42,291 bases of DNA from Byssovorax sp. Lineage in GTDB: Bacteria > Myxococcota_A > Polyangia > Polyangiales > Polyangiaceae. Position 1 is the stretch's first letter. Each line of letters opens with the position of its first letter. The stretch covers positions 1 through 42,291 of the forward strand of contig JANYGI010000046.1 of NCBI GenBank assembly GCA_025362495.1, in the 5' to 3' direction. The notes beneath the pieces were generated by a model. That model saw only the letters and a list, made by a program, of their open reading frames with translations. It was not told the DNA's origin and did no database searches. Positions 14,239-40,318 of this stretch are shown here, piece after piece. The position numbers and the translations under genes are program-made.

Positions 14239-14338
14239 GGCTGCATTCCCCGCAATTCGTCGCTCCACCGGTTCGTGACTCGGCTCCTGCTCTCGCCGAT
14301 CGGAGGCGGCAGAGCCCTTGCTCGCCAGGCCTTTTTCA

Positions 14339-15823
14339 ATGCGAATTCCCCGCCGCCTCATCCTCTGTTGCTTCTCCCTCTCGTTCGCGGCGCCCCTCGG
14401 GGCGGGCTGCAAAGGGGGTGCTGGCCAGGAGGGCTTCGGCGGCGGTAGCGACCCTTCGACGAGCGATCTCCCCAACGAGGTGAGCGTCGTCGCCACCGGC
14501 GGCTTCACGTTCCCGCCCGGCGTCTGGCTGAACCACTATGGCGACGTCGAGGATCAGCACGCCACGGCCATGGCGGTGAATGACGACGGCGAGATCGCGC
14601 TCACGGGTACGGCCAAAGGCACCATCGATCTCGGCAACATCCCCTGGCCGGGCGGTACGAAGGACACCGACGTCTTCGTCGCCAAGATCTCCCGTGAAGG
14701 TCAGGCGCAGTGGAGCCGTCGTTACGGCGACTCGTGCGATCAGCACAGCGGCGCGGTGGCCCACGCGCCGGCGGGGAGCGTGCTCGTCGCCGGCGATTTC
14801 TGCGGCAAGATGAGCTTCGGAGCCACCTCGGTCGAGACCAAGGCCGGAGAGGTCGACGCCTTCGTCGCCATGATCGACACCCTCGGCGAGGACATCTATT
14901 CGCGGAGCTTCGGCGGCGCGGGCGCCCAGATCGTGCGCGCCGCCGCCGTGGACCCCGACGGTGACGCCATCATCGTCGGATCGTTCGACACCGCCTTCGA
15001 CGACGGCAGCGGCGCCAGCGCCGTGCCGAGCACAGGCATGGACGACGTGTTCGCGATCAAGCTCGATCCGAAGGGCAAGCTGCTCTGGAGCCTCACCCTC
15101 GGCGGCTCGGAGTCCGATGTCGCCTCCAGCGTCGCCGTCGGCGCCAAAGGCACTGTCGTGCTCGGCGGGAGCTTCGCAGGCACCGTCGATTTCGGCGGCG
15201 GCCCGCTCGTCGCTACCGCGGGCCACCGCAGCGGGTTCGTCGTCGAGCTCGATCCCACGGGCAAGCACGTCTGGAGTCAGGCCCTCGCCGCCGACGACGA
15301 CGCCGTGGTCACCGGGATCGCCGTCCGCCCCGCGGGCACCATCGCTGCGACAGGCTATTTCCGCGGGACGATCGATCTCGGCATGGGCCCCCAGGCGAGC
15401 TCGGGAGACGACGACGTGTTCCTCACGACGATGGCCGCCGACGGGACGCCGGCCTGGAGCACCACCTTTGGCGCCAAAGGGTCTCAGCGCGCCACCGCCG
15501 TCACGTTCGGCTCCTTCGGCGACGTGGCGATCTCCGGCACGACTGACACGATCCTCGACATCGCGCTGGGCAACGTCGGGCTCGCGACGCCCGCCGCCGG
15601 GATGAATCCGTACCTGACCTACGCCGTGAAGTTCAACAGCGCCGGCACGCCCGCCGGCGCGTGGACGATCGACAGCGCGACCGAGCTCGAGAGCGTGGGT
15701 ATCGGGTTCGACAAGAGCATGGCTACCTACCTGGCAGGCTCGTTCGAGTCGCCGATCAGCTTCCAGAGCCCGTACGTGAGCCCCGAGGGAGGCTGGGACG
15801 TGTTCGTCGTGCGCAACAATTGA
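14339..15823 (+). CDS. Seven-bladed propeller lipoprotein, paralogue 2
   Basis: A 494-residue paralogue of the gene just upstream, with signal peptide MRIPRRLILCCFSLSFAAPL, lipid-attachment Cys24 in GAGCKGG, a short linker with DPSTSDLPNE, and seven blades. The blade-2 cysteine pair (GDSCDQHSG and DFCGKMSFG) is conserved. The last blade ends EGGWDVFVVRNN, like the copies downstream. The spacer from paralogue 1 is 100 bases and contains GGCTCCTGC, a short motif that recurs before paralogue 3, which suggests the duplication unit included the leader. The ATG at 14339 is chosen because it opens the signal peptide. Confidence 0.87.
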   Translation: MRIPRRLILCCFSLSFAAPLGAGCKGGAGQEGFGGGSDPSTSDLPNEVSVVATGGFTFPPGVWLNHYGDVEDQHATAMAVNDDGEIALTGTAKGTIDLGNIPWPGGTKDTDVFVAKISREGQAQWSRRYGDSCDQHSGAVAHAPAGSVLVAGDFCGKMSFGATSVETKAGEVDAFVAMIDTLGEDIYSRSFGGAGAQIVRAAAVDPDGDAIIVGSFDTAFDDGSGASAVPSTGMDDVFAIKLDPKGKLLWSLTLGGSESDVASSVAVGAKGTVVLGGSFAGTVDFGGGPLVATAGHRSGFVVELDPTGKHVWSQALAADDDAVVTGIAVRPAGTIAATGYFRGTIDLGMGPQASSGDDDVFLTTMAADGTPAWSTTFGAKGSQRATAVTFGSFGDVAISGTTDTILDIALGNVGLATPAAGMNPYLTYAVKFNSAGTPAGAWTIDSATELESVGIGFDKSMATYLAGSFESPISFQSPYVSPEGGWDVFVVRNN

Positions 15824-15922
15824 GTCCGACGCGGAGCGTGCATTCACGCTATACATCTGTTCGACAGGCTCCTGCGCTCTTTCCGATCGAGAGCTGAACC
15901 CCCCGGCACGAGGTGCTGATCC

Positions 15923-17392
15923 ATGCGAATTTCCCGCGGCTTCGCCCTTTGCTTCACTCTCGTCCTCGCGGGCTCGATCGGCGTCGGCTGCGCCGGAGAT
16001 CCCACGGTGACGACCACCGGTAGTGGCGGCTCCTCCGATGTATCCACCAGCAATGGCGCTCCGTTTCCCGAGGACACCACGTCCGTTGGCACCGGGCCTT
16101 CGTTCCAGCCAGGCACCTGGAGCAAGCAGTATGGCGGCGACTCGGAGCAGGTCGCATCGGCCCTCGCTGTGAACGACGCCGGCGACATCGCGCTCGTCGG
16201 CACCGCCAGCGGGACCATCGATTTCGGCAACATCGCCTTGATGGGGCCCGTCACCGACACCGACGTGGTGGTCGCCAGGATCTCGCAAGAAGGGCAGACG
16301 CAGTGGAGCCGTCGTTACGGCGACTCGTGTGATCAGCACGGCGGGGCGGTCGCCAACATGCCTTCGGGCAACGTGCTCATCGCCGGCGATTTTTGCGGCA
16401 AGATGAGCTTCGGCAAGACGTCAGTCGAGGCCAAAAAGGGCGAGGTCGATCTCTTCGTCGCCCTGATCGACACCCTCGGCGAAGACGTCTACTCGAAGCG
16501 ATTCGGCGGCGCCGGCGACCAGATCGCGTTCGCCGCCGCCGCGGATCCGCAGGGGAACGCCGTCATCGTCGGCGCGTTCACCGGCGCCTTCGACGACGGC
16601 ACCGGCGAAGTCCCGAGCGCCGGAGTCTACGACGCGTTCGTGCTCAAGCTCGATCCCAAGGGCAACCTGCTCTGGAGTCGGCACTTCGGAGGGCAGGGGG
16701 CCGACCTCGCTCGTGCGGTGGCGATCGACGCCGCCGGCAACATCGTCGTCGGAGGGAACTTCACGGGCAGCGTCGACTTCGGCGGGGGCCCGCTCGTCGC
16801 GCCCTCGGGGCACCCCGGCGCGTTCCTCATCGAGCTCGATCCGGACGGCAACCACCTGAATAGCCAGAGCTTTGGCTCCGACTATGCCGCGGTCCGGGGC
16901 GTGGCGGTCGGGGCCGACGGGCGCATCGCGGCGACAGGGTCGTTCTCGGGGACCATCGATGTTGGACAGGGCCCGATCTCCAGCGCCGGTGACGAAGACA
17001 TCTTCGTCGTCGAGCTCGACAGCACAGGAAAGGTCGAATGGGGCCACACCTTCGGCGGCGCGGGCACCGAGGTCGGGAAAGGCGTTGCGTTCGGGGTGGG
17101 CGGCACGCTGGCGATGACGGGCACCTCCAGCGTCGATCTCGACTTCGAAGGGCTTGCCGTCACGGGCAACCCCGACCCGTACATCAGCTATGTGATCGAC
17201 CTCGACGCGGCCGGCAATGTCGTCTCGGGCTGGTCGATCAACAGCCCATCTCCGTTGCAAAACGTGGGTGTCGGCTTCTCCGGCAAGCTCGAGACGACCA
17301 TCGCCGGCTCGTTCAATGGCGTGCTGTTCAATGGATTCGGGTCGTTCGAGCCCCAGACCGGCTGGGACATGTACATCGTGCACCGGCCGTGA
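15923..17392 (+). CDS. Seven-bladed propeller lipoprotein, paralogue 3
   Basis: A 489-residue member of the tandem set. The signal peptide MRISRGFALCFTLVLAGSIG runs to VGC, and the mature part begins with a Thr/Gly/Ser linker followed by seven propeller blades. Blade 2 keeps GDSCDQHGG and DFCGKMSFG. Compared with paralogues 1 and 2, it has NSQSFGSDYAAVRGVAVGADG in blade 5 in place of a blade with adjacent Asp residues. The spacer upstream is 99 bases with GGCTCCTGC. It is most alike to paralogue 4 in blades 2-4, which points to recent duplication or gene conversion between neighbours. Confidence 0.87.
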   Translation: MRISRGFALCFTLVLAGSIGVGCAGDPTVTTTGSGGSSDVSTSNGAPFPEDTTSVGTGPSFQPGTWSKQYGGDSEQVASALAVNDAGDIALVGTASGTIDFGNIALMGPVTDTDVVVARISQEGQTQWSRRYGDSCDQHGGAVANMPSGNVLIAGDFCGKMSFGKTSVEAKKGEVDLFVALIDTLGEDVYSKRFGGAGDQIAFAAAADPQGNAVIVGAFTGAFDDGTGEVPSAGVYDAFVLKLDPKGNLLWSRHFGGQGADLARAVAIDAAGNIVVGGNFTGSVDFGGGPLVAPSGHPGAFLIELDPDGNHLNSQSFGSDYAAVRGVAVGADGRIAATGSFSGTIDVGQGPISSAGDEDIFVVELDSTGKVEWGHTFGGAGTEVGKGVAFGVGGTLAMTGTSSVDLDFEGLAVTGNPDPYISYVIDLDAAGNVVSGWSINSPSPLQNVGVGFSGKLETTIAGSFNGVLFNGFGSFEPQTGWDMYIVHRP

Positions 17393-17489
17393 TCCCCGGA
17401 TGGCCGAGCGTCGACGTGCTACCCTGTCGTCGACTCGGTCCCTTCGGTCCTCCGGCGCGACGTCGATCCGGGCATGAGGTGTACATCCA

Positions 17490-18959
17490 ATGCGATCTTT
17501 CTCTGGCCTCTTCACCTGCGCTGTCGCCGTCGCCCTCGCGTGCTCCAGCGGCGCCGCCTGCTCGAGCGAGCGTGCTCTGCCACCGGGCACGGGCGGCGCC
17601 TCGGACCTGGTTCCGGCGGTCGTGGCCGATGTCGGCGTCGGGCCGAGCGTGCCGCCCCAGCCGCCTGTCCCGACCTCCTGGGATGTGCACTACGGCGACA
17701 TCGCGGATCAGACGGTATCGGCCGCCGCGGTCGACGCCGCCGGTGAAATCGCGCTCGTGGGCACGGCCAAGGGCACGATCGATTTTGGCAACATCGCCTG
17801 GCCGGGCTCCACGACGGACACCGACGTCGTGGTCGCCAAGCTCGCCAGCGACGGCCAGGCGCAGTGGAGCCGTCGTTACGGCGACTCGTGTGATCAGCAC
17901 GGCGACGCCGTCGCCAACCTGCCCGCGGGCGACGTGCTCATCGCCGGCGATTTCTGTGGCAAGATGAGCTTCGGCAAGACCGCCGTGGAGACGCAGGGAG
18001 GCGAGGTCGATCTCTTCGTCGCCGTCATCGACGCTCTCGGTGAAGACGTCTATTCGCGGCGCTTCGGCGGCAAAGGCGCCCAGATCGCGCGTGCCGCCGC
18101 GGCGGACGCGCAGGGCAACACCGTCGTCGTCGGCTCGTTCGACCAGGCCTTCGACGACGGCTCCGGCGAAGCGCCGAGCGCCGGCAAGGACGATATCTTC
18201 GTGCTGGACCTCGATCCCAAGGGCAACGTGCTCTGGAGTCAGCGCTTCGGAGGCCCCGAGTCCGACCTCGCCCGCGCGGTCGCGATCGACACCAAAGGAC
18301 ACATCGTGATCGGCGGCAGCTTCGGCGGCAGCCTCGATTTCGGCGGCGGTCCGCTCACCGCCCCGCCGGGGCACCCGAGCGCCTTCCTCGTCGAGCTCGA
18401 CTCTGCCGGCAAGCACCTCTGGAGTCAGACGTTCTCCAGCGACGACGCCGTCATCAACAGCGTCGCGTTTCGACGCGACGGTCCCATCGCGGTGACGGGA
18501 TCGTTCGCCGGGAGCATCGACGTCGGCAATGGTCCCGTCCCGACCCTCGGCGGGAACGACGCGTTCGCGGCCACGCTCGACGGCGCCGGAAAGGTGATCT
18601 GGGGGCGAGTCTTCGGCACCCCGAAGTCGGAGAGCGGCAGCGGCGTCGCCTTCTGGGCGAATGGCCTCCTCGCGCTCGCCATCACCAGCGAAGGCGGAGT
18701 GGATTTCGGCAGCCTGTCCGGCGACGTCAGCTTCGAGGAGGGGCTGCACACGGTCTATGTCACCACGCTCGACCTGACCGGGTTGCCGGTGCACGGGTGG
18801 TCGGTGGCGAGCGACGAGCCGATCCAGGTCGCCGGAGTCGGCTTTGTCGGCCAGGTCGAGATCACCCTCGCGGGCTCGTTCCAGAGCATGCTCCGCACCG
18901 GTCGCGCGAAGCTCTGGTCCGCCGGTGGGTGGGACATCTTCGCGATCCATCGCCTGTGA
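17490..18959 (+). CDS. Seven-bladed propeller lipoprotein, paralogue 4
   Basis: A 489-residue last member of the set. The signal peptide MRSFSGLFTCAVAVALACSS is followed by GAACSS and a Pro-rich linker (VPPQPPVPT, about residues 53-61), unlike the Ser/Thr linkers of the others. Seven blades follow, ending GGWDIFAIHRL. The cysteine pair in blade 2 is present. Blade 6 is the most divergent between the copies (here GVDFGSLSGDVSFEEG), so ligand specificity might differ there. The gene follows paralogue 3 after 97 bases and is followed by a strong inverted repeat at 18998. Confidence 0.87.
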   Translation: MRSFSGLFTCAVAVALACSSGAACSSERALPPGTGGASDLVPAVVADVGVGPSVPPQPPVPTSWDVHYGDIADQTVSAAAVDAAGEIALVGTAKGTIDFGNIAWPGSTTDTDVVVAKLASDGQAQWSRRYGDSCDQHGDAVANLPAGDVLIAGDFCGKMSFGKTAVETQGGEVDLFVAVIDALGEDVYSRRFGGKGAQIARAAAADAQGNTVVVGSFDQAFDDGSGEAPSAGKDDIFVLDLDPKGNVLWSQRFGGPESDLARAVAIDTKGHIVIGGSFGGSLDFGGGPLTAPPGHPSAFLVELDSAGKHLWSQTFSSDDAVINSVAFRRDGPIAVTGSFAGSIDVGNGPVPTLGGNDAFAATLDGAGKVIWGRVFGTPKSESGSGVAFWANGLLALAITSEGGVDFGSLSGDVSFEEGLHTVYVTTLDLTGLPVHGWSVASDEPIQVAGVGFVGQVEITLAGSFQSMLRTGRAKLWSAGGWDIFAIHRL

Positions 18960-22179: not shown

Positions 22180-24075
22180 ATGGATGTCGTGCGTAGCCTC
22201 GAAAAGGTTGTTTCGTTCTCCGCCGACAAGCTCTGGCCGCTGATGCAGCGAATCAACCGGGTCGGCCCGGTGGCCAAGCCATTTCACCCGAAGTGGAGTG
22301 ACGCGCCCATCCCGCGCGGCAAAGAGCGAACGTCGCCGCCCCTCGGCTGGCCGCGCGAGACCGACAGCCTCTGCCCCGAGTGCGTGAAGGAGGCCCGCGG
22401 CGAGATCCTCCGCGGCGACGCCGACTGGACCTCGCTCATCAACGACAAGCCCGGCGAGATCCGCGCGCGAATCGTCGAGCAGGACGGCAAGATCATCATG
22501 GAGAAGACGTGCCCCCAGCACGGCCGCTTCGAGGACGTGATCTCCATCGATCCGAAGTTCCTCGCCCGGATCGAGGGTCTCTTCGGCGGCCGCGACGTCG
22601 CGATGACGAAGGACGCGATCCACAACCACGGATCGAGCACCATCAAGTACGGCCGCGGCTCGGTCCTCACCGTCGACCTCACCAACCGCTGCAACATGAT
22701 GTGCGACCCGTGCTTCATGGATGCCAATCAGGTGGGCTATGTCCACGAGCTCCAGTGGGACGAGATCGCCAAGATCCTCGACGACGCGGCCGAGGTGAAG
22801 CCCCGGCGTCAGATGTCGATCCAGTTCTCGGGCGGCGAGCCCACGCTCTCTCCGCACTTCCTCGACGCCATCCGCTACGCGCGCAAGAAGGGCTATTTCG
22901 CCGTCCAGTGCGCGACCAACGGCCTCCGCTTCGCCGAGGAGCCGGGCTTCGCGCAGAAGGCCAGGGACGCCGGCCTCCGCATGGCGTACCTCCAGTTCGA
23001 TGGCGTCACCAACTACTCGAACAGCCACCGCAAGATCTCCAACCTCTACGACGTGAAGCTCCGCGCCATCGAGGAGATGGCGAAGGTCGGCATCGACGTC
23101 ATCCTCGTGGTCACCATCGTCAACGGCGTCAACAACGACCAGGTGGGCCCGATCGTCGAGTTCGCGGTCCAGAACGCCGACAAGATCACCGTCGTCAGCT
23201 TCCAGCCCGTCAGCTTCACCGGCCGCGACGAAGACGTGACGCCCGAGGTCCGCGCCCAGCAGCGCTACACGCTCAGCCACCTGGCGCGGGACATCGCCGC
23301 GCAGACGGGGATCACCAGCCCCCACCGCGACTGGTTCCCTCTCTCGTCGCTCTCGCCCTTTGGCAACGTGGTCGATCTCCTCGACGGGCCCGACAAGGAC
23401 TGGGGCCAGCTCAACTGCGGTTGCCACCCCAACTGCGGTATCGGGACTGCTCTCCTCGTCAACAAGCAGACGAAGCAGATGGTCCCGATCATGGACTTCC
23501 TCGACGTGGAGGGCCTGCTCCGGGACTTCGCGACGATCTTCGAGGCCGGCCGCGGCCGCGATTGGTCCCGCGCCCAGGTCGTGGCCTCGCTCCTCCGCCA
23601 CTACAAGCCCGACGGGGCCCCCGCGGGCTTCAACATCATGACGCTGCTCAAGCAGTTCATGAGCCAGTCGGGCGCGGCGCACGCGGGGGAGGCCGACGCG
23701 AAGAGCTACGAGTGGCGCATCCTCTTCGTGGCCGGCATGTGGTTTCAAGACCTCTTCAACTACGATTTTCGCCGTACCGAGATGTGCATCATCCCCTACG
23801 GCACGCAGATGGGCGAGATCAGCTTCTGCGCTTACAACACCGGTGTCGGCTGGCGCAACATCATCGAGAAGATGAAGGCCAACGCCACCGTCGCCGAGTG
23901 GTACAAGGCCCAGGGGCGCCACCCCGTGCACGCCAAGAACAAGGACCTCGAGCTCCCCGGCTACGAGGGTCCGCTCACGGTGGTCGAGCACGATCTGGCG
24001 CGGCGCGAGCGCGAGGAGACGGCGACCACGGGCCGGCGCGTGCGCAAGCTCAAGCACCTTCCCATCGTGAGCTGA
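22180..24075 (+). CDS. Radical SAM protein, MJ0619/tetraether-synthase-like
   Basis: A 631-residue enzyme. The N-terminal part has CPEC (65-68) and CPQHG (111-115), a rubredoxin/zinc-ribbon-like metal site. The radical SAM core follows: VDLTNRCNMMCDPCF with cluster ligands C171, C175, C178 (CxxxCxxC), then SGGEP (217-221). Further cysteines at 413, 415, 419, 536 and 550 could bind auxiliary iron-sulfur clusters. This layout is that of archaeal MJ0619 (tetraether lipid synthase, formerly thought to be a pterin methyltransferase) and its bacterial relatives, which couple lipid tails by C-C bond formation. The lipid assignment is inference; a role in another methylation or coupling is possible. 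GGAAGG lies about 11 bases before the ATG. It stands alone on its strand. Confidence 0.85.
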   Translation: MDVVRSLEKVVSFSADKLWPLMQRINRVGPVAKPFHPKWSDAPIPRGKERTSPPLGWPRETDSLCPECVKEARGEILRGDADWTSLINDKPGEIRARIVEQDGKIIMEKTCPQHGRFEDVISIDPKFLARIEGLFGGRDVAMTKDAIHNHGSSTIKYGRGSVLTVDLTNRCNMMCDPCFMDANQVGYVHELQWDEIAKILDDAAEVKPRRQMSIQFSGGEPTLSPHFLDAIRYARKKGYFAVQCATNGLRFAEEPGFAQKARDAGLRMAYLQFDGVTNYSNSHRKISNLYDVKLRAIEEMAKVGIDVILVVTIVNGVNNDQVGPIVEFAVQNADKITVVSFQPVSFTGRDEDVTPEVRAQQRYTLSHLARDIAAQTGITSPHRDWFPLSSLSPFGNVVDLLDGPDKDWGQLNCGCHPNCGIGTALLVNKQTKQMVPIMDFLDVEGLLRDFATIFEAGRGRDWSRAQVVASLLRHYKPDGAPAGFNIMTLLKQFMSQSGAAHAGEADAKSYEWRILFVAGMWFQDLFNYDFRRTEMCIIPYGTQMGEISFCAYNTGVGWRNIIEKMKANATVAEWYKAQGRHPVHAKNKDLELPGYEGPLTVVEHDLARREREETATTGRRVRKLKHLPIVS

Positions 24076-28446: not shown

Positions 28447-29913
28447 TCACCCCGGCTCTTCGCGGTGGAGCGCCATCGTCATGCAATGAGGCCCGCCGCG
28501 CGCGCGCCCGAGCTCACTGCCATCCACGGCGACCATCAGCCGCTCTCCCGCCACCATCCATCCTTTGACTCGCACCGCGTCGAGCTCGGCCGCTGGAACC
28601 ACCTGGAACGGCCGTAGATGGTCCTTCGGCGGCACGGCGCCGCCCGGAGTCACCGTGAGCGCCTTCCCCGAAAGTGCGCTCAACGCCGCGAGAGTCCGAT
28701 CATTGCGAGCATACGAGAGCGCCACGCCCGGCCCCACGGCGAAGGCGTTGCACGCGTCACACCACTGCTCACGGTGCTGCGCAGTCCGGACCTCGCCGCC
28801 GCCGGCAATCAGCGTCAGCGGCCGCCCCGGGCTGCTCAATCGCTCTCCCATCGCGCGGCTGAACGGGCCGACCCACCGCATCTCGATCGGCGCTTCCGCG
28901 TCGCCCTCGAGATCGCACGCGTACACGGCCATCTCTTCGCGCGCGTTCGGGAACGTCAGCGGCGGGAACGCCAGCGCGAGCCCGTGATCGACGAGCGTGA
29001 ACACCGTGTCGAGGTGCATCATCGCGCGCCGCGCGGGCAGCTCCACGGCGCACAGCTCCCGGAAAGGAAATGCTGCAGGCCGCTCGGCCTTGAGCTTGCG
29101 CAGCGCGAGCGCGAGGGCCGTCGCGCCCTTCCACGACGTGCGCTCGCTGATGCCGACGACGATCGTCTCGCGCGAGAGGGCCATCACGTCGCCGCCCTCG
29201 ATGCACAGGCGCCCGGGCACGGCGTCGAGCAGCCGTTGGGCGCGCGGGCCAAAGGCCATCTGCTCGAGATCGAAGCACGCGTCGCCGAGGCCGAGCGCCT
29301 CGCGGAACAGGTAGCGCGCGAGGGCCGGCTCCTTGCGGCGCACCTGCTTGGCCATCGACGAGAGGAACGCGGCGCCGCCGAGGACGATGGGGTAATCGCG
29401 CGCGAAGATCACGTTGGGCGAGGGCGCGACGCGGAAGAGCGATCCGCCGGGGCGCGGCCGCTTGGCGAGCACGCCGGCGATCAGATCGTCGACGAGCTGG
29501 CTGTCGCCGTGGAGCAGCTCGGCGCGGAGCGACTCGGCGAGATCCTCGGCGTCAGCGGGGCGTAGATCCGGCTCGATCGAGGCGATCTCGTCGATCAGGG
29601 CCGACGCCGCCGCGCTGCCGCGCTGCGCGGTGAGGGCTCTGCGGAGCTCGTCGCGGAGATCGACGACGGGCGTGATCGCCCGGTCGGCGCCGGGCGCGGC
29701 GCGCATCAGCAGATCGAGCGCGTCGGTGAAGGCGCGGTGCTGCTCGCGCGCGCGCTCGAGCCAGAGCACGTCCTCCACCAGGTAGCGCTCGCGCTGATCC
29801 GGCGGCACGCGTCGGAGCTCTTCGCCCGGCGAGCACACCAGGACGCGGCGGAGGAACCCGACCTCGCTCTCGACGCGGAGCGTGGGTGTCAGGAGATTGT
29901 CAGGAGCGTTCAC
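28447..29913 (-). CDS. arcA: Arginine deiminase
   Basis: A 488-residue member of the pentein superfamily, hydrolysing arginine to citrulline and ammonia in the cytosol. Catalytic set visible: Asp173 in FARDYP, Glu239 in IEGGDV, His300 and Asp302 in MHLDTVFT, and nucleophile Cys477 in GRARGGPHCMTM. The N-terminal EVGFLRRVLVCSPG and VLWLERAREQH are typical. It is about 70-80 residues longer than most deiminases, with extra sequence at about 85-155 and 420-450. The start is a GTG at 29913 whose last three bases form the TGA of the previous gene (GTGA, 4-base overlap). It is the last gene of a four-gene operon. No ornithine carbamoyltransferase, carbamate kinase or antiporter is nearby, so it is not a standard ATP-yielding ADI pathway. 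Confidence 0.92.
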   Translation of the reverse strand: MNAPDNLLTPTLRVESEVGFLRRVLVCSPGEELRRVPPDQRERYLVEDVLWLERAREQHRAFTDALDLLMRAAPGADRAITPVVDLRDELRRALTAQRGSAAASALIDEIASIEPDLRPADAEDLAESLRAELLHGDSQLVDDLIAGVLAKRPRPGGSLFRVAPSPNVIFARDYPIVLGGAAFLSSMAKQVRRKEPALARYLFREALGLGDACFDLEQMAFGPRAQRLLDAVPGRLCIEGGDVMALSRETIVVGISERTSWKGATALALALRKLKAERPAAFPFRELCAVELPARRAMMHLDTVFTLVDHGLALAFPPLTFPNAREEMAVYACDLEGDAEAPIEMRWVGPFSRAMGERLSSPGRPLTLIAGGGEVRTAQHREQWCDACNAFAVGPGVALSYARNDRTLAALSALSGKALTVTPGGAVPPKDHLRPFQVVPAAELDAVRVKGWMVAGERLMVAVDGSELGRARGGPHCMTMALHREEPG

Positions 29914-31562
29914 GAGCTGCCTTTCGGCTCGCGCACCAGCGGCATGGCCAGGCTGCGCGCGCCGCCGCGGGCGCGGCTGAGCTCGGCGCCGGGGATGAGC
30001 AGCGCGACCGGCGCGCCGTTGCCACGAGCCCGCAGCGCGGCGAGCAGCGCGCAGCAACGCAGCCCCGAGAGCGGCCCCGCGAGCACCTCGCGCTCGGCGT
30101 CGACGCAGACCGCGCCGAGCACCTCGCGGTAGAACGCGGCGTGGCGGTCGAAGCCGACGAAGATGCCCTCGTCGATCACGAGCAGGTTGAGCGCGTGCGC
30201 CCAGAGGCTCTGTTGCAAGGCGATCCACGCTTCGCCGCCGCCGCCGTCGGGCGTCTCCCAGGGTACCTTTCCCGGCACCCAGCGCACCGTGACGTCGAGG
30301 CCGGCGCGCGCCGTCGCGTCTTCGAAGTCGCGGCACGAGACGAGATCGACCTTGGGGTTGGGGCGAAACTCTTCGCCGGGAGCGCGTCGCTTCTTCGGGG
30401 CGCCGGGCGCCTCGGGGAGGAAGACGAAGAAGCGCGCGCCCGGCCCCGACGTGGGCTGCACCAGCGTGCGATCGGCGACGATCGTGCGGTGATCGAGCAC
30501 GAGGAGGCGCGTGTCGAGGTGCGTGGGATCCTCGCGCGAGTCGGGCACGTCGACGACGATGACGGCGCCGATCTCGCCGCGGAGCGGGCGCCCGTCGCGG
30601 CGGAGCAAGCGGTACGCGAGCTCGTCGATCGCGTCGGCCGAGGTGCGGGCGTTGTGGCCGAGGATGACCACCGTCTTGCCGTCGGTCCGGCGCAGCGTGA
30701 GCACGTTGCCGCCTTCGAGGATGAAGTGGCGCCCGTCGGCCATGTACGCGCCCTCGAGCTCGATGTGCACGCGCTCGCCGTCGACGCGCTGCGGAGCGCC
30801 CTGGGCTTCGATCCACGGGGCCTCGACGCCCCCGACGCGCACCCGCACGCGCGCGGCGTCGAGCTGCACGTACTCCCACGCCGTGCGCCGCATACGGTGG
30901 CGCGCGCGGAACGAGGGATCGATCCAGAACTCGCCGCTGCCGAGCGGGCCGAAGACGTTGCTGCGGCGGATCACCGTCTCGACGACGACCTCCTCCGGCA
31001 TGCGAACGAGCTGGGACATGTAGCCCTGGATCACGCGGTCGAGGAGCACCACGGCCACGTCCTGCATGAAGATCAGGTTGGCCATCGGCTGCAGGTGATA
31101 GAGCGCGTCCTCGACCTCGGCCGCGAAGCTGCGCGAGGCCTCGACGCCCTCGATCAGCGCGCGCGAGACGACGCCGGGATCCGGCTCCTCGGCGAGCTGA
31201 CGGAGCACGTAGCTCGGCGCGCCCGGGCTGACGTCGTGCACGCTCGCGAGGAACTGCTCGCGGTCGGTGCTCGACATCTGCTCGTAGACGCGCGCCAGCA
31301 GATCGCCGAGCTCGTGCACGCGCGCGCCGAGGCGCTCGAGCAGCGTGCGGAGGACGGCGTGCTCGCGGCGAGCCTCTTCGAGGTGGAGGAGATCGTCGTA
31401 GAGGTGCCAGCGATAGTTGGCGGGGATGAGGCGCTCGATCTCGCGGCCAGGCGCGTGGACCACGCACGCGCGCAGGCGATCGGCCTCCGACGCGAGGAAG
31501 AGATCGCCGACGTGCGGCTCGGGGCAGCCGCAGGGCGGGGGCGCCTTGCGGGTGTTACCCAC
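29910..31562 (-). CDS. Arginine deiminase-like protein lacking the catalytic Cys
   Basis: A 550-residue paralogue of the downstream arginine deiminase. Shared landmarks: REIERLIPAN, LLHLEEARREH, ILEGGNVLTL, DPTHLDTRLLVLD and the end LSRARGGARSLAMPLVRE. The position of the nucleophile Cys holds Ser537 (GGARS where the active enzyme has GGPHC); FxRD is FMQD (Arg to Gln at 167), and EGGD is EGGN (286). His348 and Asp350 are kept. It is therefore probably inactive as a deiminase and may regulate or pair with the active copy, or bind a different guanidino ligand. About 140 extra residues lie mainly between 170 and 275. The GTG start at 31562 overlaps the previous stop by 8 bases. Confidence 0.85.
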   Translation of the reverse strand: MGNTRKAPPPCGCPEPHVGDLFLASEADRLRACVVHAPGREIERLIPANYRWHLYDDLLHLEEARREHAVLRTLLERLGARVHELGDLLARVYEQMSSTDREQFLASVHDVSPGAPSYVLRQLAEEPDPGVVSRALIEGVEASRSFAAEVEDALYHLQPMANLIFMQDVAVVLLDRVIQGYMSQLVRMPEEVVVETVIRRSNVFGPLGSGEFWIDPSFRARHRMRRTAWEYVQLDAARVRVRVGGVEAPWIEAQGAPQRVDGERVHIELEGAYMADGRHFILEGGNVLTLRRTDGKTVVILGHNARTSADAIDELAYRLLRRDGRPLRGEIGAVIVVDVPDSREDPTHLDTRLLVLDHRTIVADRTLVQPTSGPGARFFVFLPEAPGAPKKRRAPGEEFRPNPKVDLVSCRDFEDATARAGLDVTVRWVPGKVPWETPDGGGGEAWIALQQSLWAHALNLLVIDEGIFVGFDRHAAFYREVLGAVCVDAEREVLAGPLSGLRCCALLAALRARGNGAPVALLIPGAELSRARGGARSLAMPLVREPKGSS

Positions 31563-32343
31563 GGCGCACCAGCACGCTCTTTCTGTCGCCCGAGAGGCCG
31601 GGCGGGAGGATCTCGATCCGCTCGCCCGCGGCCGCGCGATCGAGGAGCTCGCGCAGCGCCGCGTGATCGTCGACGGGCACCCACGAGGCCCCTTCGGGCG
31701 GCTCGCGTGAGGCCTTGTGCGATCGTGTCATGGCCTCCTGCCATCGAATGTCGTCGGTGAGATCGACCGCGTAAAGGAAGCTCGACGCGGCCTTCCCGTG
31801 CGCGCTCGGGACGGGCCCGAGGAGCCGCAGCGCGCCCATCCGGGTGTGGACGCGGAGGCTCGGGTTATCCCACTGCGCGATGCCTTGCTGCGTCGTTGCG
31901 CGGAGCATCTTCAGCGTCAGGGCCTTGATGATCGCCGCGGCGCCGATCCCTTCGCGGAGCGAAATCAACGACACGCCTACGACCGTCCCCGGGACGATGC
32001 TGGGCGCGGCGAAGTACGCCGCTGCGACCGCTTCATCGTCGTCGCCGAGGCCCTCGGGGCGCGCGTCGCAGAGGCGCGCCGGGCAGGTGAGCAGGCCGAT
32101 CGCCGCGGGCAGCAGGTAGAAGTCGACGAGCACCCAGCCGGGCAAGGCGAGGGGCTCGGGGAAGCGCGCGCGGTTGGCCGCGTGATAGCGCGCGACCCAG
32201 GTCGCATGCGTCGCGGCGTCGAGGTACTCGACCGGCTGACCGAACGGCGCGAGATCGAGCGCGGCCGCGTTGTCGCGGGCGCCGAGCGCGCGCAGCCGGC
32301 ACTCGGGATGACGCGCGAAGAAGGCGGCGATCGTCTCACGCAT
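31555..32343 (-). CDS. Unknown protein, possibly GNAT-like acyltransferase
   Basis: A 262-residue soluble protein without signal peptide. The central part has GTVVGVSLISLREGIGAAAI, a helix, then GIAQWDNPSLRVHTRMGALR; the run of a strand, a turn with REGIGAAA, a helix and an N-x-SLRVHxxMGA segment resembles motifs A and B of GNAT N-acetyltransferases, but the match is weak. The start (ATG 32343) overlaps the preceding gene's stop by 8 bases, and its TAA overlaps the start of the next by 8. Its place between guanidino-modifying enzymes suggests it acts on the same substrate, perhaps acylating an arginine-derived amine. This is inference; no active-site residue can be named. Confidence 0.7.
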   Translation of the reverse strand: MRETIAAFFARHPECRLRALGARDNAAALDLAPFGQPVEYLDAATHATWVARYHAANRARFPEPLALPGWVLVDFYLLPAAIGLLTCPARLCDARPEGLGDDDEAVAAAYFAAPSIVPGTVVGVSLISLREGIGAAAIIKALTLKMLRATTQQGIAQWDNPSLRVHTRMGALRLLGPVPSAHGKAASSFLYAVDLTDDIRWQEAMTRSHKASREPPEGASWVPVDDHAALRELLDRAAAGERIEILPPGLSGDRKSVLVRRG

Positions 32344-33238
32344 CGGCGAGGATCCTCGGGCGCTGCGCGCGGTAATCGAGCGCGGGCGGGACGGTTACCT
32401 TTGCCGCGTCGACGCGCGCGTGGCTCACGAGGCAACGCGAGGCGCCGCCGGCCTTCTCGCAGAGCTCCTGCATGGGGAGCGAAATCACCCTCAAATTCCA
32501 GCCTCTCATGAGATCGATCACCCGCGCGGGCACCAGGTGCGGCGCGAGGACGTCGCCGCCGATCGGGAGGCCGTTGGTCGCGTAGGATCGGATTTCGTCG
32601 ACGCTGACGGGGACGATCGCCTCGGCGCCAAAGGCCGCTTCGAGGCGCGCGAGCCCGTCGCCGAGCAGCACGTCGGGGCACACGAGGAGCTTGCCCGCGG
32701 CCTCGAGCGGCAGCGCCGCCATGTTGCCGTGGAAGGCCGGCTGGCGGACCTCGAGGAGGATCGCGTCGTCGGGGAAATACCTGGCCGCGCTCGCGACGCC
32801 GGCCGCGTCGGTGCGGCCGCCGAAGAACAGCAACGTTCGCCCGCGGAAGGTGGCGACGTCGCCCTGCGCTTCCCACGTGCCGTCGAGATCGATCGGCTGC
32901 AGACCGAGCGACTCCGCGGCGGGGCGCCACAGCGCGCGCTCGCCCTTGCGATGCGGCGCGAACATGTTCGGGAGCAGGAAGAGGAGCTGCCCCGCGCGCT
33001 CGACGATCTGCCCGCACTCGGCCGCGTAGGGTAGGCCGGTGAGCTCGGTGTCGCGATTGGGGACGAGGCAGATCACGCGACCGTCACGCTCCTCGATCGC
33101 GTCGGCGAGCGCTACCCACTCGCGGAGCGCAGCGCGCGCGTCGACGGGCGCGGCGGCCTCGCTGCGAAAGTTCGCGCGGCCCCGCAGCCGCCACTCGGGC
33201 CCAGGAGGGGACATGAGGTAGAGATCCGTGAGCGCCAT
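32336..33238 (-). CDS. Amidinotransferase/DDAH-like hydrolase
   Basis: A 300-residue pentein-fold enzyme of the dimethylargininase/amidinotransferase group. Motifs: TWEAQGDVATF (Glu123, Asp127), LLFFGGRTD, QPAFHGNMAALPL (His170) and GGASRCLVSHAR with nucleophile Cys269. All catalytic positions are intact, so it should form a covalent amidino-thiol intermediate and either hydrolyse it (giving citrulline or urea-type products) or pass it to an amine. There is no signal peptide. It is the first gene of the operon, and its stop overlaps the next start by 8 bases. A 347-base region upstream must hold the promoter, though no clear -35/-10 is seen. The substrate (arginine, methylarginine or a larger guanidino compound) is open. 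Confidence 0.85.
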   Translation of the reverse strand: MALTDLYLMSPPGPEWRLRGRANFRSEAAAPVDARAALREWVALADAIEERDGRVICLVPNRDTELTGLPYAAECGQIVERAGQLLFLLPNMFAPHRKGERALWRPAAESLGLQPIDLDGTWEAQGDVATFRGRTLLFFGGRTDAAGVASAARYFPDDAILLEVRQPAFHGNMAALPLEAAGKLLVCPDVLLGDGLARLEAAFGAEAIVPVSVDEIRSYATNGLPIGGDVLAPHLVPARVIDLMRGWNLRVISLPMQELCEKAGGASRCLVSHARVDAAKVTVPPALDYRAQRPRILADA

Positions 33239-36068: not shown

Positions 36069-37181
36069 CTAGCCGCCGAGCACCGCGGCGATCGTCTCCT
36101 GCAGATAGCGCACCGCGAGGGCCACTGTCCGCTCGCCGCTGTCGGCCTTTGGCCGCAGCATGGGCGCGACTTCCATCACGTCACCACCGATCAACCCGAA
36201 CTCTCGCCCCAGCCTCTGTATCAGCGCAACGACGAAGTCGGGCGTGAGGCCTCCCGGCTCCGGCGTCCCCGTCGCGTCGGCCCAGGCCTCGTCGGTGCCG
36301 TCGATGTCGTTCGAGAAATACACCCCGGTGACCCCGCGGGCCTTCAGGTGCGCGACGAGATCGTCAATCACGCCCTCGGGCCTCTCCAGGCATTCCGTGG
36401 CCCAGAATTGCCGCACGCCGAGGGTGCTCTCCCAGTGTCCGCGATCGTGGCGTGTCGCGCGGATCCCCACCTGCACGAGGCGCCCGTCGCGGTCGAAGAG
36501 CTCGTTGGCGTGGTACGACCACGTGGCGAAGCAGTATTTCACGCCGAGCCTCTCCGCGAGCAGATCGGTGTGCGCGTCAGACTGCACGATCGCCCAGCGC
36601 TCGTGGTGGCGCGCGCGTCCCAGCGCAGCGGCGACAGGCCAAGCGGTGGAGTGGTCGCCGCCGATCACGATCGGCGCGACCTTCGGGTTCAACACGAAGA
36701 CGAGATCGAGCGCGCGCTCCGCGATCGAGAGCGGCGAGACCGGCAGCGTCGCGGCGATGTCGCCCGGCAACGTGGGGTAGAGCGCGCGGCGCGACGCGGC
36801 CTTCTGCGCGTCGCCGATCATCTCGTCGTGGAGGAGCTGCGGCACCACGAACACGTCGCCGAGGTCGACGATGCCGTCGCGTTCGGCGCGCGCGGGGAAG
36901 CCAGGATCACCGTCCAGGAGAGCGGTGCGGATCGCCTGCGGGCCGAGGTTCGCGCCCCGCTGAAAGCCGGCGCCCACATCGGAGGGGACACCGAGGATCA
37001 CCGCGCGCGCCGCGGGGATCCGCGCGAGCGCCGCGAGCCATTTCGCGTGCACCTCGTCGTCGTTGGCCGCGCCGTAGAGGCGGCGCTGTAGCGCGAGCTG
37101 CTCGGCGCGCCCGGTCGATACGAGGTAGAGGCCGCCGCCGGCGGGACGGAGGAGGACCGCGAGCTCTTCGAGGGGCGTCAT
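36069..37181 (-). CDS. Ureohydrolase (arginase/agmatinase/formimidoylglutamase family)
   Basis: A 370-residue binuclear-manganese hydrolase. The metal ligands are His177 in GGDHS, Asp202-x-His204-x-Asp206 in SDAHTDLL, and Asp292 and Asp294 in SNDIDGTDEAWAD. The last motif departs from the usual SxDxDxxDP, with EA in place of the Pro region, and the chain has an N-terminal extension of about 60 residues, so its substrate may not be arginine or agmatine. The family cleaves guanidino or formimino groups, releasing urea or formamide. The ATG at 37181 starts MTPLEELAVLLRPAGG. It lies 3 kb from the pentein operon but separately transcribed. Confidence 0.87.
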   Translation of the reverse strand: MTPLEELAVLLRPAGGGLYLVSTGRAEQLALQRRLYGAANDDEVHAKWLAALARIPAARAVILGVPSDVGAGFQRGANLGPQAIRTALLDGDPGFPARAERDGIVDLGDVFVVPQLLHDEMIGDAQKAASRRALYPTLPGDIAATLPVSPLSIAERALDLVFVLNPKVAPIVIGGDHSTAWPVAAALGRARHHERWAIVQSDAHTDLLAERLGVKYCFATWSYHANELFDRDGRLVQVGIRATRHDRGHWESTLGVRQFWATECLERPEGVIDDLVAHLKARGVTGVYFSNDIDGTDEAWADATGTPEPGGLTPDFVVALIQRLGREFGLIGGDVMEVAPMLRPKADSGERTVALAVRYLQETIAAVLGG

Positions 37182-37240
37182 GGCTGCGAGGGTTCCACCG
37201 CGGCGCTGTCGAGGCACGCAAAAACGCGAGGGCGGCTGGC

Positions 37241-38035
37241 TCAGCGGTAGGCGCTCTCGCGCGCGCGCGCCTCGAGATCGGCCGCGAAGTCTTCGTCGCC
37301 GACGGCGCGCGCCTCGCTCGAGAGCGCGCGCGCTTCGGCCGCGCCGACGCCGTCGAGCAGGCGCTCGTCGATGCGCAGGCGCGTGAGCCGGTGGAGTCGC
37401 CCGAGCGTGCCCTCGTGATCGGGGGTGATCCCCCTCGCGCGCCAGTCGGCCTCGATCGCGCGGAGCAGCTCGGGCGCCTTCCACGCGTCGGAGATCACGG
37501 CGCGGCCGAGGCGCGTGTCGATGTCTTCGCTGCCGGTGGGGAGCGCGGCGACGGCGAGCTGCGCGGCGGTGTGCGTGTCGCCGAGACCGATGGAGATCAT
37601 CGCGCGGCTGCCTTCGAGGAGGCGGATCTCTTCCGGGCGAAGGAGCGCGCGATCGACGCGGGGCATCGCCTCGCTGGCCGCGGTGTACCGCTCGCGGCGA
37701 ACGTCATCGACGACGGCGCCGAGGCCCCGGAGCGCCACCGCGGTCGGCGTGAGCGTCACCGCGGGATCCACCGGTAAAGCGGGCTGGCGCGGATCGTCGA
37801 GCGGCAGCTGCGCGGCGCGCCACAGGGCGTCTCGAGCCACGCTCACCGTGCGCGCGGCTACCGCGGCGGCGACGAACACCAGGCCCGGGAAGAGCCATCC
37901 CACCGGGCCGACGCGCTGCTCGAGCGCGAGGCCGAGGATGAAGATCGCGCCGCAGCACACGCCGAGGCCCAGCTTGCCGCCGCGCACAGTGACGCCGAAC
38001 ATGCTCGCGCAACACTCGAGGAGGAACCGCTGCAC
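37241..38035 (-). CDS. Membrane protein with cytosolic helical domain
   Basis: A 264-residue protein with two N-terminal hydrophobic segments (about 21-37 and 45-61) followed by about 200 residues of Ala/Leu/Arg-rich helices with TPR-like spacing (EEIRLLEGSRAMISIGLGDTHTAAQLAVAAL). No enzymatic motif is seen. The frame opens with a GTG at 38035; an ATG at 38002 (MFGVTVRGG) is an equally possible start. It ends 59 bases from the ureohydrolase start and begins 19 bases after the dehydrogenase stop, so the three may be co-transcribed. Confidence 0.75.
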   Translation of the reverse strand: MQRFLLECCASMFGVTVRGGKLGLGVCCGAIFILGLALEQRVGPVGWLFPGLVFVAAAVAARTVSVARDALWRAAQLPLDDPRQPALPVDPAVTLTPTAVALRGLGAVVDDVRRERYTAASEAMPRVDRALLRPEEIRLLEGSRAMISIGLGDTHTAAQLAVAALPTGSEDIDTRLGRAVISDAWKAPELLRAIEADWRARGITPDHEGTLGRLHRLTRLRIDERLLDGVGAAEARALSSEARAVGDEDFAADLEARARESAYR

Positions 38036-38054
38036 GGGCGCGAGCGTAGCCGGA

Positions 38055-39056
38055 TCAGCTCGCGAGCTTCCGGCTGATCGCGGCGGCGAAATCGTCGGTC
38101 GACGCGGTGCCCGCGAGATCGCGCGTGCGCACGTTGCCCTCGCGGTACACGTCGGTGAGCGCCGTCTCGATGTTCTGCGCGGCCACGTTCTCGCCGAGGT
38201 GCCGCAGCATCATCACGGCGCTCTGGATCAAGGCCGTCGGGTTCGCGAAGCCCTTGCCCGCGATGTCGGGCGCCGAGCCGTGCACCGCCTCGAACACCGC
38301 GCAGCTGTCGCCGATGTTGGCGCCGGGGACGATGCCGAGGCCGCCGACGAGGCCGGCGCCGAGGTCCGAGAGGATGTCACCGTAGAGGTTCTCGGTGACG
38401 AGCACGCCGAGCCGGTTCGGGTCGCGCACCATCGTCATCGCGGCGGCGTCGACAATCATCTCGCGCAGCTCGATCTCCTTGTGCTTCTCGCCGACGCGAC
38501 GCGCGCAGTCGAGCGCGAGGCCGTCCGAGATCTTCATGATGTTCGCCTTGTGCACGATCGTCACGCGCTTGCGGCCGTTCTGCGCGGCGTAGCGGAACGC
38601 GAACTCGGCGATGTTGGTCGAGGCGACCTCGGTCGTGAGCTTGATGCTCTGCGCGACGCCCGGCATGATCATCAGCTCGAGGCCCGCGTAGAGCCCCTCG
38701 GTGTTCTCGCGGACGATGACCATGTCGACGTCGAAGCGCAGTTCCACGTTCGGGAGGCTGCGGATCGGGCGGACGTTGGCGTAGAGATCGAGCGTCTGGC
38801 GCAGGGTGACGTTGACGGAGCGGAAGCCCTTGCCGATCGGCGTGGTGACCGGGCCCTTGAGCGCGATCCGGTTCTTGCGCACGGCCTCGACCACCGACGG
38901 AGGGAGCGGGTTGCCGGTGAGCTTCACGACCTCGAGGCCCGCGTGATGCACCTCCCAGTCGATCTCGACCTTCGCGTCGCGGAGGACTTTCTGCGTTGCT
39001 TCGGTGACTTCGGGGCCGATGCCGTCGCCGGCGAGGATTGCGATCTTGAGCTTCAT
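38055..39056 (-). CDS. NAD-type isocitrate dehydrogenase, possibly chimeric N-terminus
   Basis: A 333-residue beta-decarboxylating dehydrogenase. The body matches NAD-isocitrate dehydrogenase: KGPVTTPIGKGFRSVNVTLR, RENTEGLY, and the coenzyme segment AVHGSAPDIAGKGFANP. It oxidises isocitrate to 2-oxoglutarate. The N-terminus MKLKIAILAGDGIGPEV is of LeuB (isopropylmalate dehydrogenase) style rather than the LIPGDGIGPEV usual for isocitrate dehydrogenases. The first 23 codons use GCA, GAA and AAA, while the rest is nearly all G/C-ending. The leader before the ATG (GGAGTAG as RBS) also has the lower-GC character of the leuA side. The gene may thus be an artificial or natural fusion of two species' genes at the shared GDGIGPEV motif. 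Confidence 0.85.
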   Translation of the reverse strand: MKLKIAILAGDGIGPEVTEATQKVLRDAKVEIDWEVHHAGLEVVKLTGNPLPPSVVEAVRKNRIALKGPVTTPIGKGFRSVNVTLRQTLDLYANVRPIRSLPNVELRFDVDMVIVRENTEGLYAGLELMIMPGVAQSIKLTTEVASTNIAEFAFRYAAQNGRKRVTIVHKANIMKISDGLALDCARRVGEKHKEIELREMIVDAAAMTMVRDPNRLGVLVTENLYGDILSDLGAGLVGGLGIVPGANIGDSCAVFEAVHGSAPDIAGKGFANPTALIQSAVMMLRHLGENVAAQNIETALTDVYREGNVRTRDLAGTASTDDFAAAISRKLAS

Positions 39057-39060
39057 TTGC
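38985..39060. other. Probable junction between two genomes
   Basis: Third-position G/C bias, overall GC and gene style all change here: left is myxobacterial-like, right is acidobacterial-like. The change falls inside a conserved motif of the dehydrogenase gene, as expected for mis-assembly or recombination at a shared stretch. The exact base cannot be fixed by eye. Confidence 0.6.
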
Positions 39061-39093
39061 TACTCCGAAAAAGACAACGACAAATGCTTAACA

Positions 39094-39120
39094 CGGATCA
39101 ATGCGGATACAAGCACGGAT
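39094..39120 (+). repeat. Short CGGAT repeats in the leuA-dehydrogenase spacer
   Basis: CGGAT occurs at 39094, 39104 and 39116, at 10-12 base intervals. Short repeats of this CACGGAT/GCGGAT kind are often seen between genes of soil bacteria outside the myxobacteria. No function is evident. Confidence 0.4.
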
Positions 39121-39145
39121 CGGGAACAGGTGAGGTTACGAGGTT

Positions 39146-40318
39146 TCAAACGGTCATGATTGCGTCTTCGGGCTTCAGCAGGCCGATCAGGTCCTGGTCA
39201 TAGATGGATTTCTTGCGGTCGGCGAGCGCGGTGAACCGGCTATAGACCTCGTCGAGTTGCTGGCGACTGAGCGGGTGGCCGAGTTCTGCGAGACGCTGCT
39301 CCAGCAGGCGGCGGCCGCTGTGCTTGCCGAGGACCATGTTGTTTGCCGGCACGCCGACGGATTCGGGCGTCATGATCTCGTAGGTGAGCGGGTTGGCGAG
39401 GACGCCGTGCTGGTGGATGCCGGACTCATGTGCGAAGGCGTTGGCTCCGACGACCGCTTTGTTGGGCGAGCAGCCGAAGCTGATGAGCTCCGCAAGCAGG
39501 CGGCTGGTGGGGTAAAGCTGCGGCATCACGATGTTGTTGCGATACGGGAACTTGTCGCGGCGAGTCGCGAGTGCAGCGGCGATCTCTTCGAGCGCGGCAT
39601 TGCCAGCGCGTTCGCCAATGCCGTTAATGGTGCATTCGATCTGGCGAGCACCACCCTCGACACCGGCGAGCGAATTGGCGACAGCCATGCCGAGGTCGTT
39701 ATGGCAGTGGGTGGAGAAGATGATGTCTTCGGCGCCGGGGATTTCAAGCTGCATGCGCTGGAAGAGCTGCTTGTATTCGTCGGGCGTGGTGTAGCCGACG
39801 GTGTCGGGCAGGTTGATGGTGGTCGCGCCAGCCTGAATGGCGACTTTGACTATCTCGGTGAGAAACGCAGGGTCGGAGCGGGTGGCGTCCTCTGCCGAGA
39901 ACTCGACGTTGTCCGAGTACGTGCAGGCCAACGCGACACATTCGGCGGCCTGGTCCAGCGCCTGGGCGCGAGTCAGCTTGAGTTTGGCTTCGAGGTGGAG
40001 GTCAGAGCTGGCGAGGAAAACGTGGATCCGGTTGACAGGGGCTGGTTCGACCGCTCGGGCGGCAGCCTCGATATCATCACGCTTGCAGCGGGCAAGCGAC
40101 GCGATCCGAGGCCCTCGAACCTCCTTCGCGATGGCCCGGATGGATTCCAGATCGCCCAGCGATGCGATGGCGAAGCCAGCTTCGAGCACGTCGACGCCGA
40201 GGGCCGCGAGTTGGTGCGCCATCCGCAGCTTTTCGCCGTTGTGCATCGTGCAGCCGGGACTCTGCTCGCCGTCGCGGAGAGTGGTGTCAAAGAATACGAT
40301 CTGATTCGAATTTGGCAT
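39146..40318 (-). CDS. leuA: 2-isopropylmalate synthase without regulatory domain
   Basis: A 390-residue enzyme of leucine biosynthesis joining acetyl-CoA and 2-oxoisovalerate. Catalytic and metal motifs: FFDTTLRDGEQSPG (Arg15, Asp16), HCHND (204-208) with His204 and His206, and NGIGERAGN. The TIM barrel and the subdomain (to LADRKKSIYDQDLIGLL) are complete, but the protein ends there; the LeuA dimer/regulatory domain, bringing usual LeuA to about 510 residues, is missing, so leucine feedback may be absent. A stop right after the subdomain and no coding trace downstream argue against a frameshift. The ATG at 40318 is preferred over a GTG at 40333. It is divergent from a LysR gene. Base composition is unlike the left 39 kb. 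Confidence 0.9.
   Translation of the reverse strand: MPNSNQIVFFDTTLRDGEQSPGCTMHNGEKLRMAHQLAALGVDVLEAGFAIASLGDLESIRAIAKEVRGPRIASLARCKRDDIEAAARAVEPAPVNRIHVFLASSDLHLEAKLKLTRAQALDQAAECVALACTYSDNVEFSAEDATRSDPAFLTEIVKVAIQAGATTINLPDTVGYTTPDEYKQLFQRMQLEIPGAEDIIFSTHCHNDLGMAVANSLAGVEGGARQIECTINGIGERAGNAALEEIAAALATRRDKFPYRNNIVMPQLYPTSRLLAELISFGCSPNKAVVGANAFAHESGIHQHGVLANPLTYEIMTPESVGVPANNMVLGKHSGRRLLEQRLAELGHPLSRQQLDEVYSRFTALADRKKSIYDQDLIGLLKPEDAIMTV

Follow-up and report, generated by a model that had tools for sequence, protein, structure and literature searches.

Four overlapping genes of Byssovorax sp., here called A, B, C and D, were analyzed in a window of 42,291 nt, the whole stretch of DNA under study (assembly GCA_025362495.1, contig JANYGI010000046.1; genome label G000). 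These genes constitute two modules, A–B and C–D, and not one conserved four-gene system. According to the reading that we favor, and in which we place moderate confidence, C and D make up a heteromeric arginine deiminase (ADI), and this enzyme together with the second module, A–B, probably serves a single arginine-derived pathway other than the energy-yielding ADI pathway. This reading is based on gene order, on active-site residues, on the co-inheritance of C with D, and on the lack of a carbamate kinase above the family cut-off in the genomes that carry both.

All four genes were encoded on the minus strand. Gene A (32336..33238) encodes an ArgZ/dimethylargininase-like protein of 300 aa, and gene B (31555..32343; 262 aa) encodes its partner, a member of a family without a Pfam, NCBIfam or credible PDB match. 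Gene C (29910..31562; 550 aa) codes for an arginine deiminase paralogue without the catalytic Cys, and gene D (28447..29913; 488 aa, GTG start) for an arginine deiminase with all 15 of the motif positions compared. A overlaps B by 8 bases (32336..32343), B overlaps C by 8 bases (31555..31562), and C overlaps D by 4 bases (29910..29913, GTGA); the coordinates, strand and overlaps are exactly those of the initial annotation. The same four frames were chosen by a codon-usage gene caller, which is no independent proof since A–D were in its training set; homology serves as the proof. The overlaps recur across loci and are thus unlikely to be due to chance. The 4-base C/D overlap was found in all three C–D loci (the window, Minicystis rosea and genome G324), and an A/B overlap of 4 or 8 bases in eight of the nine loci in which A and B lie on the same strand, the ninth (L081) hinging on the choice of start. 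In Minicystis, B overlaps C by 8 bases provided that the ATG at L012:10543 serves as start; the gene caller took a later one, 10678.

Gene C was searched for in four overlapping samples: 97 relatives, 183 genomes of the order, 377 genomes drawn from the phylum, and 71 genomes of the class of G324. Up to 14, 7, 3, and 20 first-look candidates per genome, respectively, were scored, with up to 8 in the search for B in the class and up to 7 in the search for A. Because of these limits, and because the phylum search for C and the search for A each drew on a sample of the group, all counts given for A, B, and C are minimum values and the absences are not proven. Matches to C were obtained in 3 of the 97 relatives, 5 genomes of the order, 21 of the phylum sample, and, within its class, in G324 alone. 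A pattern scan over a collection of 84,980 species, which possibly lacks the record of the window itself, returned one ordinary ADI besides CP016211.1 (Minicystis rosea DSM 24000). The C–D pair was thereby found in three genomes, which represent two classes of a single phylum: the window genome, M. rosea (G038), which belongs to the same family (Polyangiaceae, phylum Myxococcota), and G324. The other matches were ordinary ADIs (in three of the five genomes of the order and 19 of the 21 of the phylum). L020, from a Rhodobacter metagenome-assembled genome, was returned as a relative of C and set aside as an intact ADI; it lies in an apparent arc operon with a transporter, the ADI, a carbamoyltransferase and a carbamate kinase, as read from the translations. 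The weak match among the relatives (L009 in G052, E-value of 4.5e-4) confirmed no relative and was dropped.

The C and D proteins of the three genomes were aligned with 23 other ADI sequences, namely the 22 ordinary ADIs and L020, all of which kept the motif positions; the partial sequence L016 was retained among them. Both proteins matched the ADI family of Pfam (E-values of 2.2e-45 for D and 8.2e-29 for C). Fifteen positions were picked from the deiminase motifs, all of them invariant in the 23 other ADIs and the three D proteins. D is thus identical to the other ADIs at every chosen position, including the catalytic Cys, His and Glu, the guanidinium-contact Asp, and the Arg/Asn positions of the motifs, and is otherwise divergent (27–35% identity to the 23 sequences by best local match). 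Eleven positions were kept in all three C proteins (Asn162, Phe165, Asp168, Glu283, Arg306, His348, Asp350, Trp454, Asn459, Arg473, and Arg532), and four were changed in all three: Arg to Gln167, Asp to Asn286, Asp to His, His, and Asn at position 456, and the nucleophilic Cys to Ser537. The position of the catalytic Cys is occupied by Ser in 3/3 C proteins and by Cys in 23/23 other deiminases and 3/3 D proteins. These positions were matched by motif to C406, H278, D280, and D166 of PDB mutants, and the residue roles are those which we take them to have. Judged by these residues, C is not filed as a deiminase enzyme, its catalytic Cys nucleophile being gone. The label "pseudo-deiminase" given to it at the outset is therefore right, EGGN replacing EGGD and GGARS standing at the Cys motif, as is the statement that a single operon encodes three proteins of the same superfamily, one of which is catalytically dead.

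In a tree of 28 sequences, from which the partial L016 was omitted, C formed one clade (100/100) on a long stem of 2.33 changes per column, and D formed one clade as well (100/100). The window grouped with Minicystis apart from G324 both within C (98/93) and within D (96/68). Given these clades and shared groupings, the recurring 4-base overlap and the conserved changes in C, the C–D pair looks to have been inherited as a unit, and C looks to be under constraint rather than decaying. A profile of C matched PDB chains of ADI with an E-value of 1.1e-16. An AlphaFold2 (AF2) model of C, built from a five-row alignment, had a mean predicted local distance difference test score (pLDDT) of 58.8 and a predicted template modelling score of 0.64. 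In a fold search of the PDB with this model, the first 26 rows were all arginine deiminases, with template modelling scores of 0.60–0.67 by target length and root-mean-square deviations of 10.7–14.3 Å. Among the matches was a C406A arginine deiminase with the PDB title "in complex with L-arginine"; a deiminase deprived of its nucleophile can thus hold arginine.

Relatives of B at E ≤ 0.001 occurred in 42 of 317 genomes of the class, and close relatives (E ≤ 1e-50) in 12 genomes with 13 loci (G000, G038, G276, G149, G148 with two, G179, G046, G020, G012, G054, G135, and G279). All 12 genomes possessed A, which adjoined B on the same strand at 9 of the 13 loci; the two genes were divergent neighbors cut by a contig end in G279, and A lay elsewhere in the genome in G038, G046, and G179. 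A without close B was encountered in G178 (no B at all), G059 (only the distant type of B, in tandem), and G280 (none; the genome is 54% complete). Neither A nor B was found in viral contigs. Ten of the 12 close-B genomes belong to the order, the other two, G276 and G279, lying outside it and not being certainly covered by the search for C. The complete order A–B–C–D was found in the window genome only, and each pair occurs without the other, so the proposal that the four genes are one conserved unit is not supported. The initial annotation had named occurrence of the order in a single genome, or an unrelated conserved neighborhood of each protein, as grounds for giving up its view. These grounds apply in part, as the full order was seen in one genome and the modules are separable; against complete refutation speaks M. 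rosea, in which B–C–D are joined in the same order, with 68, 68, and 65% identity to the window, and A lies elsewhere, about 1 Mb away.

Gene A belongs near ArgZ. A nine-row profile of A matched ArgZ (2.1e-10) and AgrE (1.2e-7) in the PDB, and the protein matched the NCBIfam model of dimethylargininase of the M. tuberculosis type (NF045659) with an E-value of 1.8e-10 and 40.5 bits against a cut-off of 300. Its catalytic residues Cys269, His170, and Glu123, and also Asp127, were in place, as they were in all A proteins of the following comparison. The window protein was compared with twelve others at 48–75% identity to it, which covers 13 of the 16 known close A loci (those of G179, G280, and G279, the last one cut, were left out), and with five of ten distant relatives at 30–38% identity. 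In 13/13 A proteins, Glu74 replaced the Asn of the TANAG motif of ArgZ, and Asn172 replaced the Asp two residues after the catalytic His, which is Asp in ArgZ and ADIs; the five distant relatives had the ArgZ letters, Asn and Asp, in 5/5. Two deposited ArgZ chains themselves differ at the TANAG Asn (Asn or Ser), as seen in the profile–PDB alignments. Since the guanidinium-contact pair went from Asn/Asp to Glu/Asn, we infer that A is a rewired protein of the ArgZ/DDAH type, which would be expected to use another guanidino or ureido compound as substrate. Four distant relatives of A scored best on NF045659 with 73–76 bits, under the cut-off. Among proteins with a named function, Rv2323c is nearest to this branch; M. 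tuberculosis requires it for arginine use according to PMC4569260.

Two further observations concern genes of this type. The window genome carries at L013:5835-7555 (G000:C206) another acetyltransferase and hydrolase pair, in which the gene of a dimethylargininase-like protein (under cut-off) stands immediately after one encoding a GNAT protein (Pfam, 2.9e-6); the dimethylargininase-like protein aligned poorly with A (21% identity) and was excluded from the count. In Minicystis, A is located beside an apparent type VI secretion cluster (L131:1461-9621), where the labels VgrG-like and deaminase-like are our assumption from the sequences.

Gene B gave no match in Pfam or NCBIfam, and a 20-member profile of B against the PDB gave nothing credible (best E-value of 0.055). 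Six residues are invariant in the 20-row alignment: P68, W70, D74, Q157, W158, and H182. The description of B as GNAT-like found no clear support: a stretch around QWxNxSLRVHxRxG resembles a GNAT motif, and a Pfam GNAT match was absent from 20/20 members, while hhalign of B against 22 GNATs of the same genome aligned 18 columns at a probability of about 1%. A weak Pfam match to Arr-ms (rifampin ADP-ribosyl transferase) was found in 3 of the 20 members, with a best E-value of 6.4e-4. A two-sequence AF2 model of B was unusable (pLDDT of 44.9). In G179, where A is not adjacent, B shares 4 bases with a gene that weakly matches a methylphosphonate hydroxylase model (2.1e-6; L079:6230-7797), the product of which reads as a PhyH-type protein. 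Distant paralogues of B occur as tandem pairs in other genomes (L087, L088, L089, and L090), and the members scanned were without a credible Pfam match.

Taken together in the favored reading, D would hydrolyze the guanidino group of L-arginine or of a close derivative to a ureido product and ammonia. C may be its structural or regulatory twin, the dead pocket of which probably still binds an arginine-like ligand; turnover is not expected from it, given the Ser in place of the nucleophilic Cys and the Asn in place of the second acidic residue of EGGD. A–B would be a second, independently conserved module with B as the partner of A. In the window genome the modules overlap, as B–C–D do in Minicystis, and they are probably translationally coupled; overlap and coupling suggest that they probably serve one arginine-derived pathway. 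The activity of D, the ligand binding and subunit role of C, the substrate of A, any role of B, and the pathway are the conjectural part of this reading. A more specific version, which we advance tentatively, is an obligate two-subunit deiminase: the dead paralogue would keep arginine or citrulline bound in a pocket that is isosterically blocked, and would thereby sense the amino acid or gate its active twin. The enzyme would be wired in two genera to the new-family protein B, and in one of these genera to the rewired ArgZ-type A as well, as an undescribed arginine-derived pathway.

Several facts weigh against the favored reading. The pair is known from three genomes only. C lacks the Arg beside the guanidinium-contact Asp as well as the Asp of the WxDxxN motif, so that ligand binding may be altered or lost. 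The structural model of C is of low quality, with a pLDDT below 50 at 219 of its 550 residues; as the stretch 158–284 is among them, the pocket geometry was not interpreted. The long-branch warning of the tree program names ADI_L020 and D, owing to which the place of D among the ADIs was not used. In Minicystis, A is not linked to the other genes. The search of G324 at E ≤ 0.001 yielded neither A nor B, and the order there is PhnW–PhnX–C–D, with a gap of 38 bases and all on one strand (L074:9964-11929); PhnW and PhnX, both above NCBIfam cut-offs, degrade aminoethylphosphonate, and the role of C–D in that genome may differ.

Some of these facts suit an alternative that we consider doubtful, although it is the strongest of those weighed, namely that the modules are merely neighbors: C–D would be a self-contained deiminase, A–B an unrelated pair, and the overlap between them an accident of operon rearrangement. 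It agrees with the occurrence of C–D in G324 without detectable A or B, and with the failure to find C at E ≤ 1e-10 in 8 of the 10 close-B genomes of the order. The main argument against it is again Minicystis, in which B–C–D are joined, with the 8-base B/C overlap when the first ATG is taken as the start, despite the relocation of A and the difference in most neighbors: beyond B–C–D, the fetched surroundings of the two loci share only a ureohydrolase and a LysR-type gene. The gene argS adjoins B–C–D in Minicystis and was not used as support for a tRNA-linked role.

The ureohydrolase (arginase/agmatinase family) is encoded in the window at 36069..37181 on the minus strand, 2.8 kb upstream of A, and its membership in the system is doubtful. 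Its orthologue in Minicystis (73% identity) is located 1.6 kb after D. Ureohydrolases were found in 60 of the 183 genomes of the order; because the gene is so common, its standing as a defining part is weakened, and its presence near both loci may reflect no more than common ancestry of the locus. In G324, the gene convergent to D encodes a pyridoxal phosphate (PLP)-dependent enzyme, whose best NCBIfam model was GntC, the guanitoxin gamma-hydroxyarginine cyclodehydratase (166.9 bits against 415). Around the eight A–B loci without C–D, no arginine-metabolism enzymes were seen among the ten neighbors profiled in two of them.

The ureohydrolase near both C–D loci of Polyangiaceae, the GntC-like enzyme beside D, and the clustering of guanidino-type enzymes are what favors the proposal that the cluster makes a specialized metabolite bearing a guanidino or ureido group, in line with the initial annotation, which spoke of making or degrading a guanidino or citrulline-bearing metabolite. 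A precedent is found in a part of PMC2922099, which describes predicted peptide-making operons with arginase, glycine amidinotransferase and dimethylargininase, and in several of them a GNAT protein. We regard this reading as unlikely, since no synthetase or carrier protein is among the four genes, the ureohydrolase is widespread in the order, and the GntC-like gene lies on the other strand and scores far below its cut-off.

Other genes of the window were noted in passing. The ureohydrolase is the last of a four-gene run on the minus strand (36069-40318), which also includes a 390-aa protein resembling 2-isopropylmalate synthase, a dehydrogenase of the isocitrate/isopropylmalate type, and a 264-aa protein for which no credible match was found. 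A radical SAM protein (22180-24075) had the tetraether lipid synthase Tes as its best NCBIfam model (348.6 bits against a cut-off of 450). Four paralogous tandem genes occupy 12736-18959, the first matching the SBBP-repeat beta-propeller lipoprotein model under its cut-off.

It is distinctly unlikely that C acts as a separate enzyme whose chemistry has changed, with Ser in place of Cys or with a non-hydrolytic reaction on an arginine derivative. The retention of His348, Glu283, Asp168, Asp350, and several Arg and Asn residues in all three C proteins would accord with such a function, as would the conservation of the Ser itself. Against it stand the Cys found at this position in every D protein and in every other deiminase compared, and the additional loss of the EGGD Asp and of the Arg preceding the guanidinium-contact Asp. 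We know of no Ser nucleophile in this superfamily, which also counts against it.

We failed to find arcB, arcC or arcD among the neighbors examined in the three C–D loci, some neighbors not having been profiled. Carbamate kinase was searched for in the genomes, a genome-wide search for arcB and arcD not having been made, and none of the three C–D genomes encoded one above the family cut-off; Minicystis gave one partial match of 22.8 bits. As a control, 2 of 14 genomes had a carbamate kinase above the cut-off, and the drafts of G000 and G324 are 97% complete. On the NCBIfam arcA model (TIGR01078), with a cut-off of 489.1 bits, D of the window scored 209.9 bits and the D proteins 199–210 bits, below six ADIs of the phylum (259–301 bits) and the ADI of the Rhodobacter arc operon (460 bits); as these seven also miss the cut-off, the low score of D proves little by itself. 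An ordinary arc operon was thus rejected, in agreement with the earlier remark that an operon lacking arcB, arcC and arcD is unlike the usual ADI pathway, and the system is probably not the energy-yielding arc pathway. A variant of that pathway serving energy gain or acid tolerance is highly improbable in view of the same absences and of the low scores of D, even with all 15 ADI motif positions present in D. A defense system was also rejected: the single PADLOC match, in C, had 14.7 bits.

If the favored reading is true, the lasting association of a conserved dead paralogue with its active twin would be a natural counterpart of the laboratory C406A mutant, which according to its PDB title was solved with arginine, and amino-acid sensing via a dead enzyme would become directly testable in the C–D pair. 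No description of an ADI accompanied by a conserved Cys-less paralogue, or of such a cluster, was found in the literature searched (open-license PMC papers). The A–B pair is a conserved co-occurring subfamily, in which the concerted change at two guanidinium-contact positions provides a clean lead to a new substrate, and B represents a family without known fold or function. Joined as they are, the gene pairs may hint at a part of arginine chemistry not described so far.

Among known systems, ArcA (Pfam PF02274) is the closest to C–D. D shares with it all 15 positions compared, and C shares its fold as judged by the sequence profile and the weak model; in contrast to ArcA, D is divergent, its arcB, arcC and arcD partners were not seen at the loci examined, and it is accompanied by the conserved Cys-less C. 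To our knowledge, the deiminases of this family are homomeric. Enzyme–prozyme heteromers, in which an active subunit is joined by a dead paralogue, exist in other enzyme families. C and D are likewise paralogous, adjacent and apparently co-inherited, and one of them carries conserved inactivating substitutions; the likeness lies at the level of the genes, and C–D differ from those heteromers in fold and chemistry. The counterparts of A are ArgZ/AgrE of cyanobacteria (PDB 6juy and 6lrf) and the Rv2323c-type proteins of NF045659, to which most of A can be aligned, Cys, His and Glu/Asp being in place; unlike ArgZ/AgrE, the 300-aa A has no ornithine cyclodeaminase part, and its guanidinium-contact pair is swapped.

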